Below are positions 1 to 47,628 of a stretch of 47,628 nt of DNA, piece by piece. The stretch comes from a virus. The stretch's first letter is position 1. Each line of letters opens with the position of its first letter. A program made the position numbers and the translations under genes. A model generated the notes under the pieces. The model worked only from the letters and a program-made list of their open reading frames with translations. It was not told the DNA's origin and ran no database searches. The stretch spans positions 1 through 47,628 of IMG/VR virus record IMGVR_UViG_3300036831_000023; one strand, 5' to 3'.

Positions 1-182
1 GCCTCCCCGATGATCATTATCCTACTCTTAGGATCGCCGCTCCCCATGACACAGGCACGCTCCGTACTCTCATGTAGCGAGCACAGCGTACAGTCGTGGT
101 CAGCGAGCTTATCTAGTTTACTTTTATATCCCATCGACTACCGTACAAACAGGGATTCCACGAAGACCTGCCTCCTGCATTG
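1..182. repeat. Terminal repeat, left copy (contains 5' end of polymerase gene)
   Basis: Bases 1-182 match 47447-47628 with a single difference (G at 55, A at 47501). The copy contains the first 134 bases of the polymerase gene (reading leftward from an ATG at 134) and the last codons of the SLOG gene. The most economical explanation is a circular or circularly permuted genome whose assembly ends overlap. A true short direct terminal repeat is less likely because the ends fall inside a coding sequence of a continuous operon. The single mismatch changes polymerase residue 27 from Val (right copy) to Ala (left copy). Confidence 0.95.
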
Positions 183-474
183 TGTGTCTCGTCCCTTTAG
201 ACTTACCGTCCCAGAACGCTATCACCAACTCGGGTTCAAGATCGAGCATAGCAATGTTACGCTTGAATCCCGCTGCTTTACCCCACTTCGTCCAGTCCGC
301 CGGCATCTCAGTAACAACGAAGCCAAGACCCATAGCCACTCGCCCTGCGAGGGTGTCAGCACCTTGCGCTCCGCCATGCACTATCTCTCGAGGGTGGCGG
401 ATCTCTTTGAGTACGCGGTAGATTTTTTCTTCGTTAGTCCACGACCTCGATCCGCAGATAACAATCTTCCTCAT
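124..474 (-). CDS. SLOG-domain protein (DprA/YspA-like, DUF2493 type)
   Basis: 116 residues from an ATG at 474 that overlaps the TGA of the upstream deaminase gene (ATGA) and has AAGGAT just upstream. The protein opens with ICGSRSW, has HGGAQGADTLAG in the middle and ADWTKWGKAAGFKRN followed by VIAFWDGKSKGTRHT. These are the signatures of SLOG (Rossmann-like) proteins that bind nucleotides or nucleotide-derived ligands. The family is common in phages and next to defence or nucleotide genes; its exact substrate is usually unknown. Its last 11 bases overlap the start of the polymerase gene across the genome junction, so it is co-translated with deaminase and polymerase, which suggests a role in nucleotide sensing or processing. 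That role is inferred from context. Confidence 0.85.
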   Translation of the reverse strand: MRKIVICGSRSWTNEEKIYRVLKEIRHPREIVHGGAQGADTLAGRVAMGLGFVVTEMPADWTKWGKAAGFKRNIAMLDLEPELVIAFWDGKSKGTRHTMQEAGLRGIPVCTVVDGI

Positions 475-1013
475 ATCCTTAGGCACTCGATGCCCGCCTT
501 TCTCAGGATCTCCTCACCACTGTGGTCACGGTACTGCTCGAGGTAATACACGCGCCGCACGCCTGAAGCGATTAGGAGTCGCGCGCACACTTCGCACGGG
601 CTAACTGTCACGAACAGCTCGCAACCGTCTGTAGAGATCCCCTGACGCGCTGCAAACGCAAGGGCATTCGCTTCTGCGTGCGTTGCGTTGCGACACCCTC
701 TTATTCTAGAGGCCGATTCCTGACGGGGATCATCGCCAAAGTGGCGAGGTGGTAAAGATATCATCTCACCATGCCATCCATGGTCGTTCTCATCGCAGTG
801 GGGTGCTCCTGGCGGCGCGCCGTTGAAACCCCACGAGATGCAGCGCCCATCGCGTACGAGGACTGCACCCACGCGCTTGCGGTCGCAGGTACCGAGCGAA
901 GCGATGGACTCAGCTACGTCCATAAAGACGTGGTCTTTGAGTGCTTCCCGTGCTGGGTTACCACCGCCTTTGGCGGGGTAGGGTAGAATACCTGTTTCTG
1001 ATCTACACATCAT
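471..1013 (-). CDS. Deoxycytidylate (dCMP) deaminase
   Basis: 180 residues. The zinc-site motifs of the cytidine/deoxycytidylate deaminase family are present: HAEANALAFAA (His, and Glu as proton shuttle) and SPCEVCARLL (two Cys ligands), preceded by VGAVLVRDGRCISWGFNGAPPGAPHC, split here as VGAVLVRDGR and WGFNGAPPGAPHC. The family converts dCMP to dUMP, the substrate for thymidylate synthase-type enzymes, two of which lie just upstream in the same operon. An AGGAGG lies 1 base before the first ATG and 4 bases before the next ATG (1010), so 1010 may be the better start. The gene is 5 bases from the upstream thymidylate-synthase-like gene and overlaps the SLOG gene. Cytosolic enzyme; function is well supported by motifs. 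Confidence 0.93.
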   Translation of the reverse strand: MMCRSETGILPYPAKGGGNPAREALKDHVFMDVAESIASLGTCDRKRVGAVLVRDGRCISWGFNGAPPGAPHCDENDHGWHGEMISLPPRHFGDDPRQESASRIRGCRNATHAEANALAFAARQGISTDGCELFVTVSPCEVCARLLIASGVRRVYYLEQYRDHSGEEILRKAGIECLRI

Positions 1014-1018
1014 GCCTC

Positions 1019-1855
1019 CTAGAGAAGGTGAATATCGCCCTTGTGGACGTGGAACGAGTGCGCTGCGAAGTGGAGATAGCCTGGCTTGGCTTCAATCCAT
1101 GTGGGATGGGGAGAAATCATATCGTCTCCCATTGCGGTGACGGGGATTTCGTAGTCCTTCTTCAGTTCCGAGAGCACCCACTGTACAAGACGCACAGCAA
1201 GGTAGAGGTCATCGCGGAAGTGACGCACAGCATCACAACTCCGAATGTCATACCAGCAGTGCAGCTTATCGCTGCGAAGAAGAAAGTGATACCCAAGACT
1301 GCACGGAATACGTCCGCCATGAATTGCACCTGTATCCTCCGGGAAGAAGATGGGGAAGTATGCTTGACGCGTGTAAGGCTCTTTGCGTAGTAAACCGATC
1401 ACGTCATCGAGGTCACCTATCGGGTAGCGAATGCCCTGTCCAGGTGGAACTGGCTTAAACAGCCAACGATCACCTGCCTGCTTCGGCCAGAAGCGCTCTT
1501 GGTAAGTGTGAGAGAAGATCATAAACTCATCGTCGTGATCAAACGCTTGTTCTTGACCACTCCACCACGGCCACTTCTTGTACTGTTCGCCGGGGTTAGA
1601 TGGCACTCGCGACACTCGTTCTTGGAAGTGATCTTCCGCCCAGGGTAAGTTTGGTCCGATGGTGTCTTGTGCGTGTTGCTTCGAGCCAGGCATACGTACT
1701 GAGAACTGAAGTCCTATCAACTCCTTGGTAACGAGGTCAGGCTTACCTGCCGTCGAAACACCTTGCCAGTGGCCGGTATCGGTATCTATTCCATACTGCT
1801 TGAGCAATTCGATGGATCGTTTGATAGCTGAAGGGAAGTCAACGTAATTAGTCAC
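1019..1855 (-). CDS. Thymidylate synthase-superfamily enzyme 1 (Asp at the Asn177 position)
   Basis: 278 residues from a GTG at 1855 overlapping the previous stop. The C-terminal half follows the ThyA order: YPIGDLDDVIGLLRKEPYTRQ (split: YPIGDLDDV, PYTRQAYFPIFFPEDT), then IPCSLGYHF with the likely nucleophile Cys185, then IRSCDAV with Arg205, Ser206 and Asp208, matching RSCD of ThyA. Eight residues after Asp208, where ThyA has the dUMP-selecting Asn177, this protein has Asp216. Asp at this site is known from T4 dCMP hydroxymethylase. AHSF near 265-268 aligns with the His207-x-Tyr209 region, with Tyr replaced by Phe. The enzyme probably transfers a methylene or hydroxymethyl group to C5 of a pyrimidine nucleotide using folate. 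Whether it acts on dUMP or dCMP cannot be settled here. The N-terminal 120 residues are less recognisable. Confidence 0.8.
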   Translation of the reverse strand: MTNYVDFPSAIKRSIELLKQYGIDTDTGHWQGVSTAGKPDLVTKELIGLQFSVRMPGSKQHAQDTIGPNLPWAEDHFQERVSRVPSNPGEQYKKWPWWSGQEQAFDHDDEFMIFSHTYQERFWPKQAGDRWLFKPVPPGQGIRYPIGDLDDVIGLLRKEPYTRQAYFPIFFPEDTGAIHGGRIPCSLGYHFLLRSDKLHCWYDIRSCDAVRHFRDDLYLAVRLVQWVLSELKKDYEIPVTAMGDDMISPHPTWIEAKPGYLHFAAHSFHVHKGDIHLL

Positions 1856-2261
1856 TCGGCATCAACTCCTTCTTACCAATCTCCTGCCAGAGCTCTGCCT
1901 CATCTACTCTCACTCGCGCACCGGGACGATTATCACCCTCTAGATATCGCGCTCGAGCTTGCTCCTCAAGCGGACGAAGCACATGACCCTCGGGGAAGAT
2001 CCAGAGGCCTTGCTCCCATGGATGAGTAACCTTCGCGGGACCTCCTATCATATCGGTAAGGCTGACGCGTGACAATTCCTCTTCCGCACGTTCGGTGGCG
2101 GGATAGGGCTTTACACCGTATCCACAGTCGGTGAACAAGCCGTCCATGTAGCCATCGAGTTGACGCACTATCTTTGCAACTGCTAGGCGAGCGTCACCCT
2201 CTGTGGGACCTACCACTCGTCCTACGACGGTGAACTCGAAGTCAGGCACCGCGAGCCTCAT
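1848..2261 (-). CDS. Conserved hypothetical protein of the nucleotide operon
   Basis: 137 residues, not recognised. The start ATG at 2261 sits inside the end of the preceding small gene, and its stop overlaps the start of the thymidylate-synthase-like gene, so translation is coupled on both sides. The N-terminus (VPDFEFTVVGRVVGPTEGDA) looks like a beta strand rich domain followed by an amphipathic helix (ARLAVAKIVRQL). There is no signal peptide or membrane segment. Its fixed place directly before a nucleotide-modifying enzyme suggests an accessory role, but nothing in the sequence proves it. Confidence 0.7.
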   Translation of the reverse strand: MRLAVPDFEFTVVGRVVGPTEGDARLAVAKIVRQLDGYMDGLFTDCGYGVKPYPATERAEEELSRVSLTDMIGGPAKVTHPWEQGLWIFPEGHVLRPLEEQARARYLEGDNRPGARVRVDEAELWQEIGKKELMPSD

Positions 2262-2412
2262 TCAGCGCTTGCTCTGTGGCGCGGCGAATCTCCTGCTCCG
2301 AGCAGCCGACGTTTACCGCCATCCGCACCATCGTTTTGATTTGCAGCAGCGAGATCTCTCGTTTCGACTCCTGCGTTTCTTGCCTAGTGTGTTCCTTCAA
2401 CTCCTTTACCAT
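2242..2412 (-). CDS. Small helical protein, first gene after an internal promoter
   Basis: 56 residues (MVKELKEHTRQETQ...), start ATG at 2412 with GGAGGAG 3 bases upstream. Almost wholly helical and charged, ending ATEQALNEARGA. It is the first gene after the promoter at 2445-2474 and its last 20 bases overlap the next gene. Not recognised; possibly a small regulator or an unstructured adaptor. Real-gene status rests on the strong ribosome site and the tight overlap. Confidence 0.65.
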   Translation of the reverse strand: MVKELKEHTRQETQESKREISLLQIKTMVRMAVNVGCSEQEIRRATEQALNEARGA

Positions 2413-2444
2413 CACTCCTCCTTCGCGTGATCGCGTACACTACG

Positions 2445-2474
2445 ATTGTATCACACGGGGAACTGCCATGTCAT
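2445..2474 (-). promoter_or_regulatory. sigma70-like promoter, leftward, with extended -10
   Basis: On the minus strand ATGACA (2469-2474), an 18-base spacer, then TACAAT (2445-2450) preceded by TGA, giving an extended -10 (TGATACAAT). It overlaps the stop of the upstream gene and would transcribe the 2412-to-left part of the operon: thymidylate-synthase-like protein 1, dCMP deaminase, SLOG protein and polymerase. Confidence 0.6.
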
Positions 2475-3307
2475 CTCTGCAACGGCGCCAGGGTCAGCTG
2501 ATCGACCGTCACTGTGGGGAGGAAACGCTCTTCTACGTATTCCCCATATCTACGACGAATCCGACGGAGCGGTCCATATTTCTGTGCCTCCAGCGGAACC
2601 TGATTGTCATAGTCTCTGACAATCTGGTCCCACCAACGTCCCACCAACTTGATCGTTGGAAACTTATCCCGCAGAGGAAGGTTCTCCAGGTCTCTGATGT
2701 AGTCGGTTCGGTAAAGGAACGGGAGAGATTTAAACCCATGGAACTGAAGCGCGTCGATGTGCCATCGGAATTGGAATTGTTCGACTGGTACCTCGATACG
2801 CTCCCCAATCTCGCGAGCCAAGACGTGGGCGAGGGCCAGATCCAAGCCACCGATGTAGGCGATATAACTAACCCGAGAGTGCATAGCGATTGTAGGACCA
2901 TCAGACTCACCAGTCCATTTCTTTAGTCCGCGGAAAGTGAAACCCAACATGCAGTTTCCCCATCGGTGTCGCTTAGCTCGACGTGGGACAACAGCGCAAG
3001 GCATCTGCGTAACGACCCCGCGCTTCCCTTCCCCAAGACCAATATCTGCCGCCCGGTCGATGAAACTTGTGGTGTCCTCGAGATCCAGGTAATCCCGCAC
3101 AAGCCTTGTCCATCTCTGCTTGTTAAGCCACAGATCCCGTCCAAGGTCAATGTCAAAGTCCATCGAGTCGGCCATGAGGAGATTGTCGTAAGCGATGGTA
3201 TCAATCGACGCCACGAAGTCAAGTCCGCCGTTGTCAAGTGTTCCACGCCACATCCTCCTCGTCGTCTTTCTCCACAAGTCAGAGAGGGTCGGGTAGTTAA
3301 CTAACAT
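2471..3307 (-). CDS. Thymidylate synthase-superfamily protein 2 (divergent)
   Basis: 278 residues from the ATG at 3307, which overlaps the end of the MazG gene. I place it in the ThyA superfamily from the order of three blocks: RWGNCMLGFTFRG (Cys119 as possible nucleophile), MHSRVSYIAYIGGLDLALA (Arg145 aligned with ThyA Arg166; the Ser-Cys-Asp that follows is Val-Ser-Tyr here; Asp156 falls exactly at the Asn177 position), and FRWHIDALQFHG (His183 aligned with His207, Tyr209 replaced by Asp). It is clearly distinct from thymidylate-synthase-like protein 1. It may be a second pyrimidine C5-modifying enzyme or a substrate-binding partner without full activity. An upstream in-frame extension to 3397 exists but overlaps the MazG gene and lacks a ribosome site. 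Confidence 0.6.
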   Translation of the reverse strand: MLVNYPTLSDLWRKTTRRMWRGTLDNGGLDFVASIDTIAYDNLLMADSMDFDIDLGRDLWLNKQRWTRLVRDYLDLEDTTSFIDRAADIGLGEGKRGVVTQMPCAVVPRRAKRHRWGNCMLGFTFRGLKKWTGESDGPTIAMHSRVSYIAYIGGLDLALAHVLAREIGERIEVPVEQFQFRWHIDALQFHGFKSLPFLYRTDYIRDLENLPLRDKFPTIKLVGRWWDQIVRDYDNQVPLEAQKYGPLRRIRRRYGEYVEERFLPTVTVDQLTLAPLQR

Positions 3308-3629
3308 GCTCACCGCCGTGAGCCGGGTCGCCCACCCAATCGCGAGCACGAACACGCTCCCAAGTATCCGACACGAGCTGTCCGTAGTCGGTGTCAAGAT
3401 GGGTGCAGACGCCAGCGAGGAAGATCACGCAGTCGGCTACTGCGTCAAGCATCTCTGCTTTATGCATCTCTTGGTCGCCACGGATCCCCTGCTTGCGCTT
3501 GAGGAAGTGGTGAGCGAGTTCTCCGATCTCTTCGACGGCTCCGAAGATCGAGTCTTCGATGACGTCTCCCGGAAAGTTAGTCGCTACCCACTGATTTCTC
3601 TGAGCTTGCATCATTGAGAGGTTAATCAC
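3297..3629 (-). CDS. MazG-like nucleoside triphosphate pyrophosphohydrolase
   Basis: 110 residues from a GTG at 3629 that overlaps the kinase stop (GTGA) with GAGGT upstream. The all-alpha NTP-PPase signature is visible as EEIGELAHHF followed by AEMLDAVADCVIFLAG, the EExxE and ExxD metal-binding pattern of the MazG/dUTPase-2 superfamily. Such enzymes hydrolyse (d)NTPs to monophosphates and pyrophosphate, removing unwanted bases from the pool or producing dNMP substrates. Located between a deoxynucleotide kinase and the second thymidylate-synthase-like gene, it most likely acts on pyrimidine nucleotide pools. Confidence 0.85.
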   Translation of the reverse strand: MINLSMMQAQRNQWVATNFPGDVIEDSIFGAVEEIGELAHHFLKRKQGIRGDQEMHKAEMLDAVADCVIFLAGVCTHLDTDYGQLVSDTWERVRARDWVGDPAHGGEHVS

Positions 3630-4180
3630 TTTGACCTCGCTTTCAGTGCCTGATCTACCCAAGAGATGACGTTCTCTATTGGCTGTTCGGTGTAGTCATA
3701 GTGGATGACATCCTCGAACGCCATGTTCTGCCACATAGCGTAGAATGCCCAGTACATGAAGTTGACCTTCTCGAGGTGTTTGTACTCGAGACCTTTCAGA
3801 GAAGCTCGACCGTCCTGGATTACATTGCTGTATTGCACATCCATCGACGGCATACAGAAGACTATCAATGGACCCTCGCCCCACAGGTCGTGAATGCCTC
3901 GCCAGAGATTCAACTCCGGTACGAGGAGATCACGCTTGATCTGCGCCATTTGGTAGATCGGTTCGGAGATCCAGAAACAACGGTCGTATACACCCCGTGC
4001 CTTGTACCCGCGTGACCCCCTCCATTGCTCCACCCACCACTGTGGGAGCTCTGAACTTGGACCAGACTCAGAGCTTAACAGCTGCTCCGACGGCCGACGA
4101 TAGTCAAGACCGAGCTCCTCGCATATCGCCTTCGCCAACGTCGTCTTGCCCCCACCGTCGGGGCCCTCGAGGATGATCAC
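3626..4180 (-). CDS. P-loop deoxynucleoside-monophosphate kinase-like protein
   Basis: 184 residues from a GTG at 4180 overlapping the previous TGA. N-terminal Walker A GPDGGGKTT (residues 6-14), then a kinase-like core with DRCFWISEPIYQ (a DR motif typical of the thymidylate and deoxynucleoside kinase families) and GPLIVFCMPS as a core beta strand. Length fits phage dNMP kinases. In this operon it could phosphorylate dTMP or a modified pyrimidine monophosphate made by the neighbouring enzymes. An alternative is a kinase acting on hydroxymethyl bases, as known in hypermodified phages. Substrate is inference. Confidence 0.8.
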   Translation of the reverse strand: MIILEGPDGGGKTTLAKAICEELGLDYRRPSEQLLSSESGPSSELPQWWVEQWRGSRGYKARGVYDRCFWISEPIYQMAQIKRDLLVPELNLWRGIHDLWGEGPLIVFCMPSMDVQYSNVIQDGRASLKGLEYKHLEKVNFMYWAFYAMWQNMAFEDVIHYDYTEQPIENVISWVDQALKARSK

Positions 4181-8051: not shown

Positions 8052-8477
8052 TCACCCCCGTTCTGCCAGTCGGCGCTTATTGGGTACTGCAACTCGAAGG
8101 TGCTTCTGGTACTCTATGAGTTCACGCGCGGCTTGCTGCTTCGCGTTGCTCCCGGGCTCACTCACAGCAATTCGCCTCATAAGTACCAACTCATCCCGCT
8201 TCACTGTGCAGAAGGGGATAAGCATATCTGTTAGTGCAGCAATATCCTTAGCATTCCGCACCCCCCATACGTAGAAGGGACTGCGGCTCGCGGTGGGAGT
8301 GATCTTGTAGACACCACCTAACCCCACGATTTTAGCAAACCTGTCGAGTGGTTCTCTTAGTCGCTGGCTCACCTGCACAGTGATCGAGGTTGTTTTCCCG
8401 CGAGGTAGCCTAACGAAGACACAACCTTCTCCATCGAAGAAACCCCCCGCCCAACCTAGATCGTGCGAGAATGTCAT
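8052..8477 (-). CDS. LAGLIDADG-type homing endonuclease-like protein
   Basis: 141 residues, ATG at 8477. GWAGGFFDGEGCV (residues 8-20) is a single LAGLIDADG motif with the acidic residue in the expected place; the following SITVQVSQRL and later FYVWGVRNAKDI fit the beta saddle of this family. One-motif proteins work as homodimers and cut long DNA sites. It is free-standing (no intron or intein seen) and sits at the head of the left operon beside the primase-helicase gene, a usual target neighbourhood for homing genes. Its promoter is positioned so that transcription would begin at the ATG. It may spread itself between related phages. Confidence 0.82.
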   Translation of the reverse strand: MTFSHDLGWAGGFFDGEGCVFVRLPRGKTTSITVQVSQRLREPLDRFAKIVGLGGVYKITPTASRSPFYVWGVRNAKDIAALTDMLIPFCTVKRDELVLMRRIAVSEPGSNAKQQAARELIEYQKHLRVAVPNKRRLAERG

Positions 8478-45117: not shown

Positions 45118-45146
45118 ATTGTATCAAACCTCGTCTTCTGGGGCAA
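45118..45146 (-). promoter_or_regulatory. Extended -10 promoter for the recombination genes
   Basis: Minus strand TTGCCC (45141-45146), 17-base spacer, TACAAT (45118-45123) preceded by TGA. It overlaps the stop of the polymerase gene and shares its TGATACAAT core with the promoter at 2445-2474. Confidence 0.6.
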
Positions 45147-47580
45147 TGCCTAACCCCGAGGCGTCTGGCGTACCGTCCCAGTGAGTACCCCATTCGACGT
45201 CTACCACGATGGGTACACTGAGCTCAAGACCGAACGCCTTCTTTAATGGCAGGTTCTCCATCACGTCCTTGATCACTGTGGTGTACTCGCCGATCACGTC
45301 CTCTCTCACCTGGAAGAAGACTGCGTCATGCAGCGTCCCCACCATGAACGCCTCTTGGGGGTTAAGCTCGTCGCGGAGCTTCACCATTGAGTAGAGCATC
45401 ATGTCCGACGCTGTCGCTTGGACCGGCGAGTTGATCGCCTGCCTTTCTGCTTCCCGTCGAACGGCATTATCAGATGAAAGAATGTCAGGGAGATGACGGA
45501 CGCGTCCGAGTGGGGACGTAACGTAGTGGAGGCTATTGGCAATCCTTTTCTGCCGCTCATGCCATGGTACAAGGCCCGGGAATGTTTCAAAGTATTGACT
45601 CCGTGCAAGTTCAGCTTCAGCAATGCTTACCTCCACTCCATAATTCTCGAACGCATAGCTCTGGAACTTCTTCGGATACATCTCGTAGAGGAAACCGAAG
45701 TTAACCGATTTCGCTAGCTTCCTCTCCTCCTTCGTCACCGCAGATCCAGGCTTTCCGGTCAAGTTTGATGCCATCACCAGGTGCAAGTCCTCGCCTGTCT
45801 TGAAGGCGCGCAACATCCGTCTCTCCCCCGAGATGTGGGCAGCGATGCGTAACTCTATCTGGGAGTAGTCCGCTTGGACGAAGCACCAACCCGGAGGAGC
45901 ACCGAATACACCACGTACAAACGAGTCTCTCGGCACCTGCTGCATGTCTCCAGACAATCGTCCAGTCACTGTGCCGTACAGCTTGTAAGTAGTGTGCAGC
46001 CGACTTCGCATATCCAGTCTCGTCGACCACGGTAATAAGTACGTTCGCATCCACTTTAGCTCCAATGTCCGATATTCCAGAAGCGCCTTGACCGCTGGGT
46101 GGTCGTGATAGTGGAGGAGAACTGCCTCACGGGTAGAAGGATTGCCGGATGCCGTCGTCTCCAGTGGTGAGAGATTGAGCCCCCGCTTAGAGAAAAGCCA
46201 ACGCCCAAGCTGCTGGGTGCTGTTGAAGTTGAACGGTTCGCCCCTTTCAGTCTCACGCATAGACTTCGGCAGATGCTCATGCAGCACCTCCTTACGTAGA
46301 TCGATCTCCCGTTGCAGTTGAGTGATGCGTGACCACAGCCTCGTCTTGTCGACGTACCACCCCGCCATCTCTACTTCCTGTATCACCTGCGAGGCAGGCA
46401 TCAGAAGCTTTACGAAGAGTCGTGCTAGACGAGGCTGCTTAAGAAGCTCGCTGCGCAGATGTCCGTAGATCTGATGAGTGTAGGCAACGTCGTTGCCGTT
46501 GTAGCGAGCGATCTTCTTAAGCGGCTCGTGCATGATCTTATCGGGCTTAAGTTCGACCATACCTTTATACACGTCCGCACCGAGGATAGACTGACTTAGG
46601 AACCCCAGATTCTTCGGGCGGTTCTCGTCGAGGAGATGAGCTGCAAGCATAATGTCGAAGCCATGCTGCAGAAATACGCCGGCGCCCGCGAGTTGGAGAT
46701 TGTCGTGCTTGCCGTTCTGAGCCACGAGTTTAACTCCGTGTCGAGAAAGTGCAGGCTTAAGGTACCTGAGTACTTTTCGCCAGTTTCTAGCGAATGGAGA
46801 GTCAGGGTGAGATAGCGGTATGACGTACGAAGTCTCACCGTCAAGCGAAAACCCGAGGCAGACAATGTCCCATACGCTCTCCCAGGGACGACCTCGATTT
46901 TCCACGTCATACGATACGACAGTGCCCTCGGGTGCCTGCGCGAGGAGGTCCCTGACATGCTCTAACCCTTGGAGGGAGCGGACGTAGATTGTCTTGACTG
47001 GAGCGACTGTAAGCTCGCCACGTATGAGTCTTGCAAAGCGTCGTACGTCTTCGGCAAAAACAGTACCCTGTCCAGGGTTACGGAGCACGTAAGCTGGATG
47101 GATGGTAGCCATGACGCTGGCACCTTGCCAGGCAGGGTCCTTAACATCCAACTTAATACCGCGTTTCGTAGTGATGCCAGACTTTCGAGCGACAGTCTGT
47201 AGTGCCGCATTTCCCAAGAGGAGAACGTAACGTGGAGATACCGCCCTGACCTCTCGTTCCAGATACTTGCGGCAAGCCTCCCATTCAATACGTGAAGGCC
47301 GACGGTTGTCCGGGGGGCGACACTTGACCACGTTAGTAACGTAAACCTCGTCTCTCTGAAGTCCGGCCTGAGTGAGTTCGTAATCCAGTAGTTGACCGGC
47401 CCGCCCCGAAAATACCCTGCCTGTCTCTGCTTCGTTTGCACCTGGCGCCTCCCCGATGATCATTATCCTACTCTTAGGATCGCCGCTCCCCATGACACAG
47501 ACACGCTCCGTACTCTCATGTAGCGAGCACAGCGTACAGTCGTGGTCAGCGAGCTTATCTAGTTTACTTTTATATCCCAT
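45124..47580 (-). CDS. Fusion: family 4-type uracil-DNA glycosylase and family A DNA polymerase
   Basis: 818 residues, ATG at 47580 overlapping the SLOG gene across the junction. Residues 1-195 are an iron-sulfur uracil-DNA glycosylase: CTLC (Cys15, Cys18), Cys87 and Cys103 as cluster ligands, GEAPGANEAE (43-52) and IHPAYVLRNP with His161. Residues 200-390 hold a DEDDy 3'-5' exonuclease: YDVEN (Asp225, Glu227), QNGKHDN, and YNGNDVAYT. The polymerase part has motif A DYSQIELR (571-578), motif B KLAKSVNFGF (Lys624, Phe628) and motif C LHDAVFF (Asp752), where the usual HDE is HDA. It is the replicative enzyme and can probably remove uracil from template or product. All three domains look intact apart from the motif C change. 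Confidence 0.93.
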   Translation of the reverse strand: MGYKSKLDKLADHDCTLCSLHESTERVCVMGSGDPKSRIMIIGEAPGANEAETGRVFSGRAGQLLDYELTQAGLQRDEVYVTNVVKCRPPDNRRPSRIEWEACRKYLEREVRAVSPRYVLLLGNAALQTVARKSGITTKRGIKLDVKDPAWQGASVMATIHPAYVLRNPGQGTVFAEDVRRFARLIRGELTVAPVKTIYVRSLQGLEHVRDLLAQAPEGTVVSYDVENRGRPWESVWDIVCLGFSLDGETSYVIPLSHPDSPFARNWRKVLRYLKPALSRHGVKLVAQNGKHDNLQLAGAGVFLQHGFDIMLAAHLLDENRPKNLGFLSQSILGADVYKGMVELKPDKIMHEPLKKIARYNGNDVAYTHQIYGHLRSELLKQPRLARLFVKLLMPASQVIQEVEMAGWYVDKTRLWSRITQLQREIDLRKEVLHEHLPKSMRETERGEPFNFNSTQQLGRWLFSKRGLNLSPLETTASGNPSTREAVLLHYHDHPAVKALLEYRTLELKWMRTYLLPWSTRLDMRSRLHTTYKLYGTVTGRLSGDMQQVPRDSFVRGVFGAPPGWCFVQADYSQIELRIAAHISGERRMLRAFKTGEDLHLVMASNLTGKPGSAVTKEERKLAKSVNFGFLYEMYPKKFQSYAFENYGVEVSIAEAELARSQYFETFPGLVPWHERQKRIANSLHYVTSPLGRVRHLPDILSSDNAVRREAERQAINSPVQATASDMMLYSMVKLRDELNPQEAFMVGTLHDAVFFQVREDVIGEYTTVIKDVMENLPLKKAFGLELSVPIVVDVEWGTHWDGTPDASGLGIAPEDEV

Positions 47581-47628
47581 CGACTACCGTACAAACAGGG
47601 ATTCCACGAAGACCTGCCTCCTGCATTG
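47447..47628. repeat. Terminal repeat, right copy
   Basis: Second copy of bases 1-182; differs only at 47501 (A, against G at 55). It contains the first 44 codons of the polymerase gene and the end of the SLOG gene. Together with the left copy it shows that the window closes on itself. Confidence 0.95.

Follow-up and report, generated by a model that had tools for sequence, protein, structure and literature searches.

The window, i.e. the entire stretch of 47,628 nucleotides of viral DNA that was analysed (IMG/VR record IMGVR_UViG_3300036831_000023), represents a closed circle of approximately 47,446 bp, its ends forming a terminal direct repeat of 182 nt (1-182 versus 47447-47628, 99% identity). 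Two open reading frames, which had been assigned to the thymidylate synthase (TS) superfamily by an earlier sequence-only reading, were confirmed at their coordinates (Table 1). Both are located on the minus strand, a detail that reading had omitted. They are referred to as p1 and p2 in the following and belong to an operon predicted to encode a deoxynucleoside monophosphate (dNMP) kinase, a MazG-like protein, p2, p1, a dCMP deaminase and a polymerase with a uracil-DNA-glycosylase-superfamily domain (UDG-PolA), the gene of the latter being the last of the operon and reached across the circular join. The gene order dNMP kinase, MazG-like protein, p2, p1, dCMP deaminase, PolA, exonuclease and Sak4/RecA is kept in named phages, and relatives carry MazG/dUTPase genes in the position equivalent to that of the MazG-like ORF of the window.

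Table 1. Features predicted in and around the p1/p2 operon of the window.
Feature	Position	Strand	Remarks
YAcAr SLOG-family protein, downstream of dCMP deaminase	124..486	-	PF10686 3.9e-13
dCMP deaminase	471..1013	-	PF00383 3.8e-21; PHROG_174 3e-53
p1, predicted dCMP-type TS-superfamily enzyme	1019..1855	-	C185, R205, D208, D216, H269; 278 aa
137-aa ORF between p2 and p1	1848..2261	-	no family match (Pfam, PHROG)
57-aa ORF between p2 and p1	2242..2415	-	no family match (Pfam, PHROG)
p2, divergent TS-fold partner protein (by predicted structure)	2471..3307	-	Y73, C119, R145, D156, H190; Tyr148 at pterin-Asp position; 278 aa
MazG-like nucleotide pyrophosphohydrolase, candidate dCTPase	3297..3662	-	PHROG_715 3.6e-4
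dNMP kinase, thymidylate-kinase-like	3626..4180	-	PHROG_761 3.4e-17
Homing-endonuclease-like ORF	8052-8477	-	PHROG_5046 HNH endonuclease
Family A DNA polymerase with N-terminal uracil-DNA-glycosylase-superfamily domain	45124..47580	-	PF00476 2e-85; PF03167 1e-37

p1 is certainly a member of the TS superfamily. It matched the Pfam TS family PF00303 with 18.1 bits, which is under the gathering cut-off of 24.3, and PHROG_160 (thymidylate synthase) at 6e-21. A profile of 62 p1 relatives gave 7e-11 with both MilA and the RB69-type enzyme and also matched many TSs, and in the hhalign comparison the RB69-type family (4e-15) was followed by the T4-type family (2e-10) and ThyA (6e-10), control families scoring 0.06 or worse. 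The structure predictions suggested by the sequence-only reading yielded TS-superfamily folds for both proteins; the AF2 model of p1 (pLDDT 89) was assigned by Foldseek to TS, MilA, the T4 dCMP hydroxymethylase (T4 dCH) and the RB69-type enzyme AfhB with a probability of 1.00.

The motifs and offsets described in that reading, namely PCSLGYHF, RSCD and Asp216 at +8 in p1 and Arg145 followed by Asp156 in p2, hold in both proteins, and their conservation rules out chance. In p1 they read P184-C185-SLGYHF, R205-S-C-D208 and D216 (D208+8 and R205+11), with Cys185, Arg205, Asp208 and Asp216 corresponding to C146, R166, D169 and N177 of ThyA. Together with H269, residues C185 and R205 form a catalytic trio equivalent to Cys146, Arg166 and His207. 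C185, R205, D216 and H269 are invariant across all ungapped p1 relatives (113 distinct), and position 177 is occupied by Asp in 110/110 ungapped distinct relatives, the canonical Asn of TS being absent. The pterin-side Asp (D208, ThyA D169), which p1 has in common with ThyA, T4, Xp15 and MilA, is conserved in 108 of the 113 relatives (Glu in two, gapped in three). At the Glu58/60 site hhalign aligns E74 of p1 to E73 of RB69, and so to E68 of MilA, while MAFFT puts His76 there; the E74 column contains 83 Glu and 17 Asp among 113 relatives. Due to this disagreement of the alignments W80 and E58 were not used as folate markers.

In T4 dCH and MilA it is the Asp at position 177 that determines the use of cytosine (PMC6400193, PMC5175136), and the MetaGPA study found TSs with Asp177 to be enriched on cytosine-modified contigs, alongside dCMP deaminase and PRA-PH domains (PMC8670742). 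Since Asp177 TSs have already been linked to cytosine-modified phage DNA in this way, p1 adds a new clade to an enzyme type that was already known. From their residues we infer that dCMP is the substrate of both p1 and p2.

p1 resembles the T4 dCMP hydroxymethylase gp42 (PDB 1b49, 6a9b) in the TS fold, the Cys nucleophile, Asp177, the pterin Asp, the short C-terminus and Thr/Ser at position 147, the second MetaGPA position, which is shared with the RB69 enzyme as well. The C-terminus of p1, like that of T4 dCH, stops just past the H207 equivalent and lacks the C-terminal segment of ThyA, which in TS shields the intermediate from water. However, the p1 relatives form a clade of their own (support 100/100 in the comparison with ThyA, T4, Xp15, MilA and RB69-type enzymes), which lies outside the T4 and RB69 groups on a long branch and in which otherwise conserved sites are altered, Arg127 to Gln and Gly173 to His. 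The T4 enzyme, to which the sequence-only reading had compared both proteins, is therefore too narrow a model, p1 falling outside its clade and the closest solved fold of p2 being that of the flavin-dependent dCMP hydroxylase. The CMP hydroxymethylase MilA (PDB 5jnh) shares the TS fold, a cytosine nucleotide substrate and the pterin Asp with p1, but uses a ribonucleotide, serves in antibiotic synthesis and carries Lys133 and Ala176 where p1 keeps Arg and mostly Ser, respectively. Hydroxymethylation is the most likely reaction of p1 and is favoured over hydroxylation and methylation. Because of the separate, long-branched clade with its changes at Arg127 and Gly173, the product may nevertheless not be the hydroxymethyl compound.

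For p2, no Pfam match was obtained and the sole PHROG match was PHROG_13667 of unknown function (3.5e-38). No TS match was detected in a Pfam scan of 47 p2 relatives, and the p2 profile retrieved nothing from the PDB sequences. In hhalign comparisons of the p2 profile with TS families the individual results were non-significant (P about 0.005-0.03), the best being the RB69 type with 0.005. The register of these alignments places R145 on R183 of RB69 and D156 on both D194 of RB69 and D216 of p1. The AF2 model of p2 (pLDDT 94) retrieved the phage RB69-type dCMP hydroxylase AfhB (9iqu) as its best PDB match in Foldseek (4.2e-6), and 9/9 matches at E<=0.001 belong to the TS superfamily. In a viral structure library the model matched mainly TSs, the top matches including a dCMP hydroxymethylase and the protein that occupies the p2 slot in phage PMBT14 (3e-7). 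Its structural elements follow the same order as in p1, i.e. a strand, C119, a strand, a strand with R145, a helix with D156 and a strand with H190. The predicted structure thereby supports p2 as a TS-fold protein lacking significant sequence similarity, a membership the sequence-only reading had proposed from residue spacing. That D156 occupies the Asn177 position is likewise supported by the fold match, by the strand and helix register and by the spacing (R145+11, the same Arg-to-Asp offset as in p1).

Y73, C119, R145 and D156 of p2 match by position Y94, C146, R166 and N177 (changed to Asp) of ThyA, for Y94 by position only. All four are conserved in every one of the 95 distinct p2 relatives but one (94/95), which is gapped. 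At the site of the pterin-side Asp169 a Tyr (Tyr148) is found in 90/95 relatives and a Glu in the proteobacterial branch. In terms of the modelled structure p2 keeps the machinery for nucleotide binding and the catalytic Cys without the Asp that contacts the pterin. As p2 is widespread, has an intact nucleotide and Cys site and has lost the pterin contact, it may hide a new nucleotide chemistry. In the literature searched we found no paper on the p2 family, its fold or its pairing with p1, so that this partner family is the novel element; two database records name the protein in the p2 slot 'pyrimidine hmase synthase'.

The linkage of both genes was surveyed in 150 loci, some of which overlap on one contig. 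p2 was detected in 130 of them and is accompanied by p1 in 128, the two loci without p1 both stopping at a contig end. Wherever both genes were found (128/128), they share a strand and p2 lies upstream. Among public phages the counts of p1 and p2 are equal in those of Gordonia (68), Mycobacterium (9), Streptomyces (4) and Microbacterium (2). Phages of Pseudomonas, Serratia, Yersinia, Brevundimonas and Desulfofustis encode a protein of approximately 270 aa, mostly annotated as 'hypothetical', in the slot before p1. These proteobacterial proteins match p2 over the full length (hhalign 96.7%, 3.3e-10), and by sequence comparison they are true, divergent p2 homologues. The pattern C-x(18-25)-R-x10-D was present in 15/15 slot proteins examined versus 15.6% of background ORFs. 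A query with p2 of phage Muddy revealed no p2-like genes in bacterial genomes.

Twenty loci initially appeared to contain p1 without p2. This was partly rejected, as the slot or its vicinity in some of them encodes proteins of the clusters c77, c614 and c217, which show the C/R/D spacing of p2 and are divergent p2-like proteins, the calls for c614 and c217 being weak. p2 was not detected in the available sequence of the p1 loci L023, L049, L065, L067 and L068, so p1 can probably function without p2. In four of these (L023, L049, L065 and L067) a protein of cluster c115, which we take to be an asparagine-synthase-like class II amidotransferase, is encoded near p1. Cluster c95, presumably a Dcm-like methyltransferase, occurs in L023 and also in the p2-like-bearing loci L059 and L060. 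A putative DHH-family phosphoesterase-like protein is encoded between the p2-like gene and p1 in two further loci (L016:3995-5068, L017:3980-5080). Two loci harbour a tandem pair of p2 genes upstream of a single p1 (L045:3864-5962, L124:7773-9871).

Phage T4 replaces dCTP by means of dCTP removal, dCMP modification and a kinase, together with a deaminase that acts on dCMP left unmodified; gp42 is accompanied by a dCTP-cutting enzyme, a dNMP kinase and a dCMP deaminase. The gene set of the p1/p2 operon follows this dCTP-replacement logic and is not that of a dTMP supply. In contrast to T4, p1 is accompanied by no recognised DNA glucosyltransferase, and p2 is without a T4 counterpart. A modified pyrimidine rather than extra dTMP, as proposed by the sequence-only reading, gains support from this gene set, from the presence of a separate ThyX in 6/44 related records and from the association of Asp177 with modified cytosine in MetaGPA. 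On the basis of the encoded proteins the phage DNA probably carries modified cytosines.

A similar operon is found in the Xanthomonas phage Xp15 (L195:1-3769), in which a carbamoyltransferase, a hydrolase, a dCMP-type TS and a dCMP deaminase are encoded together without p2. The Xp15 system and the 5-carbamoyloxymethyl-C pathway of MetaGPA combine a MazG-like protein, an Asp177 TS, a dCMP deaminase and a polymerase in one operon, as is the case here, but employ a carbamoyltransferase instead of p2. A carbamoyltransferase was rejected as the decorator of the base in the p1/p2 phages, the family (Carbam_trans_C) being absent from all 43 p1/p2-type records searched. Glycosyltransferases were matched in few records (GT2 in 4/44, GT1 in 1/44) in a search with two Pfam models, which an enzyme decorating at the DNA level could escape given the diversity of these families. 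With no carbamoyltransferase (0/43) and few glycosyltransferases (4/44), p2 is therefore the only recurrent companion found for the modification step.

We consider it fairly probable that p1 and p2 act as a two-protein system by which dCMP is modified at C5 ahead of replication. dCTP would be converted to dCMP by the MazG-like enzyme, and p1 would add a one-carbon group from methylene-tetrahydrofolate to dCMP, with Cys185 as the nucleophile, Asp216 for the recognition of cytosine and Asp208 for that of the pterin, most likely yielding 5-hydroxymethyl-dCMP. p2 would work with p1, either acting on its product or being a subunit dedicated to it. The kinase of the phage would then lift the modified product towards the triphosphate and the phage polymerase would incorporate it, while the dCMP deaminase would drain unmodified dCMP to dUMP. 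This order of steps is deduced from the predicted functions. If p2 acts on the product of p1, it could be a folate-independent TS-fold enzyme whose Cys119 attacks C6 of the C5-modified dCMP so that the group at C5 is exchanged or extended, a proposal that we regard as less likely than not. Should it be true, cytosine would be hypermodified at the nucleotide stage, prior to replication, by two serial paralogous TS-fold enzymes.

The possibility that p2 is a subunit rather than an enzyme of its own, forming a heterodimer or mixed oligomer with p1, is a credible one, although we rate it below even. TS dimers share phosphate-binding arginines across protomers, and T4 dCH borrows Arg123/124 from the opposite protomer. 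The strict linkage and order of p2 and p1 also agree with a common complex, as do the overlapping or abutting reading frames of both genes in Cozz, Zuko, PMBT14 and Polewnik. In the window, however, two small ORFs intervene between p2 and p1, and some p1 loci lack p2. Furthermore, p2 possesses its own invariant Cys, Arg and Asp, which would be needless in a structural subunit.

It seems unlikely that p1 (or p2) belongs to the flavin-dependent dCMP hydroxylases known from RB69 (PDB 9iqc, 9iqu) and that the resulting base is 5-hydroxycytosine or a derivative. RB69-type enzymes make 5-hydroxy-dCMP (PMC13390438); they share Asp177, and this family provides both the closest profile to p1 and, with AfhB, the best solved fold for p2. 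Nevertheless, Asn at the pterin site and Val173 are found in 4/4 of the RB69-type enzymes in the comparison, whereas p1 has Asp and His; the pterin site of p2 is occupied by Tyr instead of Asn; and p1 is placed outside the RB69-type clade with a support of 98/97. The annotation of RB69 shows no p2-like gene beside ORF048c.

Still less probable is a function of p1 as dCMP methylase with 5-methylcytosine replacing cytosine. The N177D variant of ThyA methylates dCMP according to earlier work cited in PMC8670742, but the C-terminal segment of ThyA is lacking in p1, as it is in T4 dCH. An ordinary thymidylate supply by p1, as expressed by the database name 'thymidylate synthase' and by the published thymine-synthesis account of the operon in the Gordonia CT cluster (PMC10353413), is very improbable given the invariant Asp177, which contradicts that account, and the separate ThyX, which is present in two named records with p1 in addition to the six mentioned above and makes p1 dispensable for dTMP in the records bearing it.

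Taking the two-protein modification of dCMP as the preferred reading, a broad group of phages, including the Gordonia phages of SEA-PHAGES and Muddy, has been annotated as producing extra thymine but probably contains modified cytosine instead. The two distantly related proteins are encoded together in phages with widely differing bacterial hosts, usually labelled as 'thymine synthesis' and 'hypothetical protein'. Modified cytosine, if present, would affect the sensitivity to restriction, CRISPR and type IV nucleases as well as sequencing and phage engineering. Cultured representatives of the p1/p2 phages exist, so that the question of modification is directly testable. In the therapeutic Mycobacterium phage Muddy the pair corresponds to gp47 (p2) and gp46 (p1) (L160:7961-9630).
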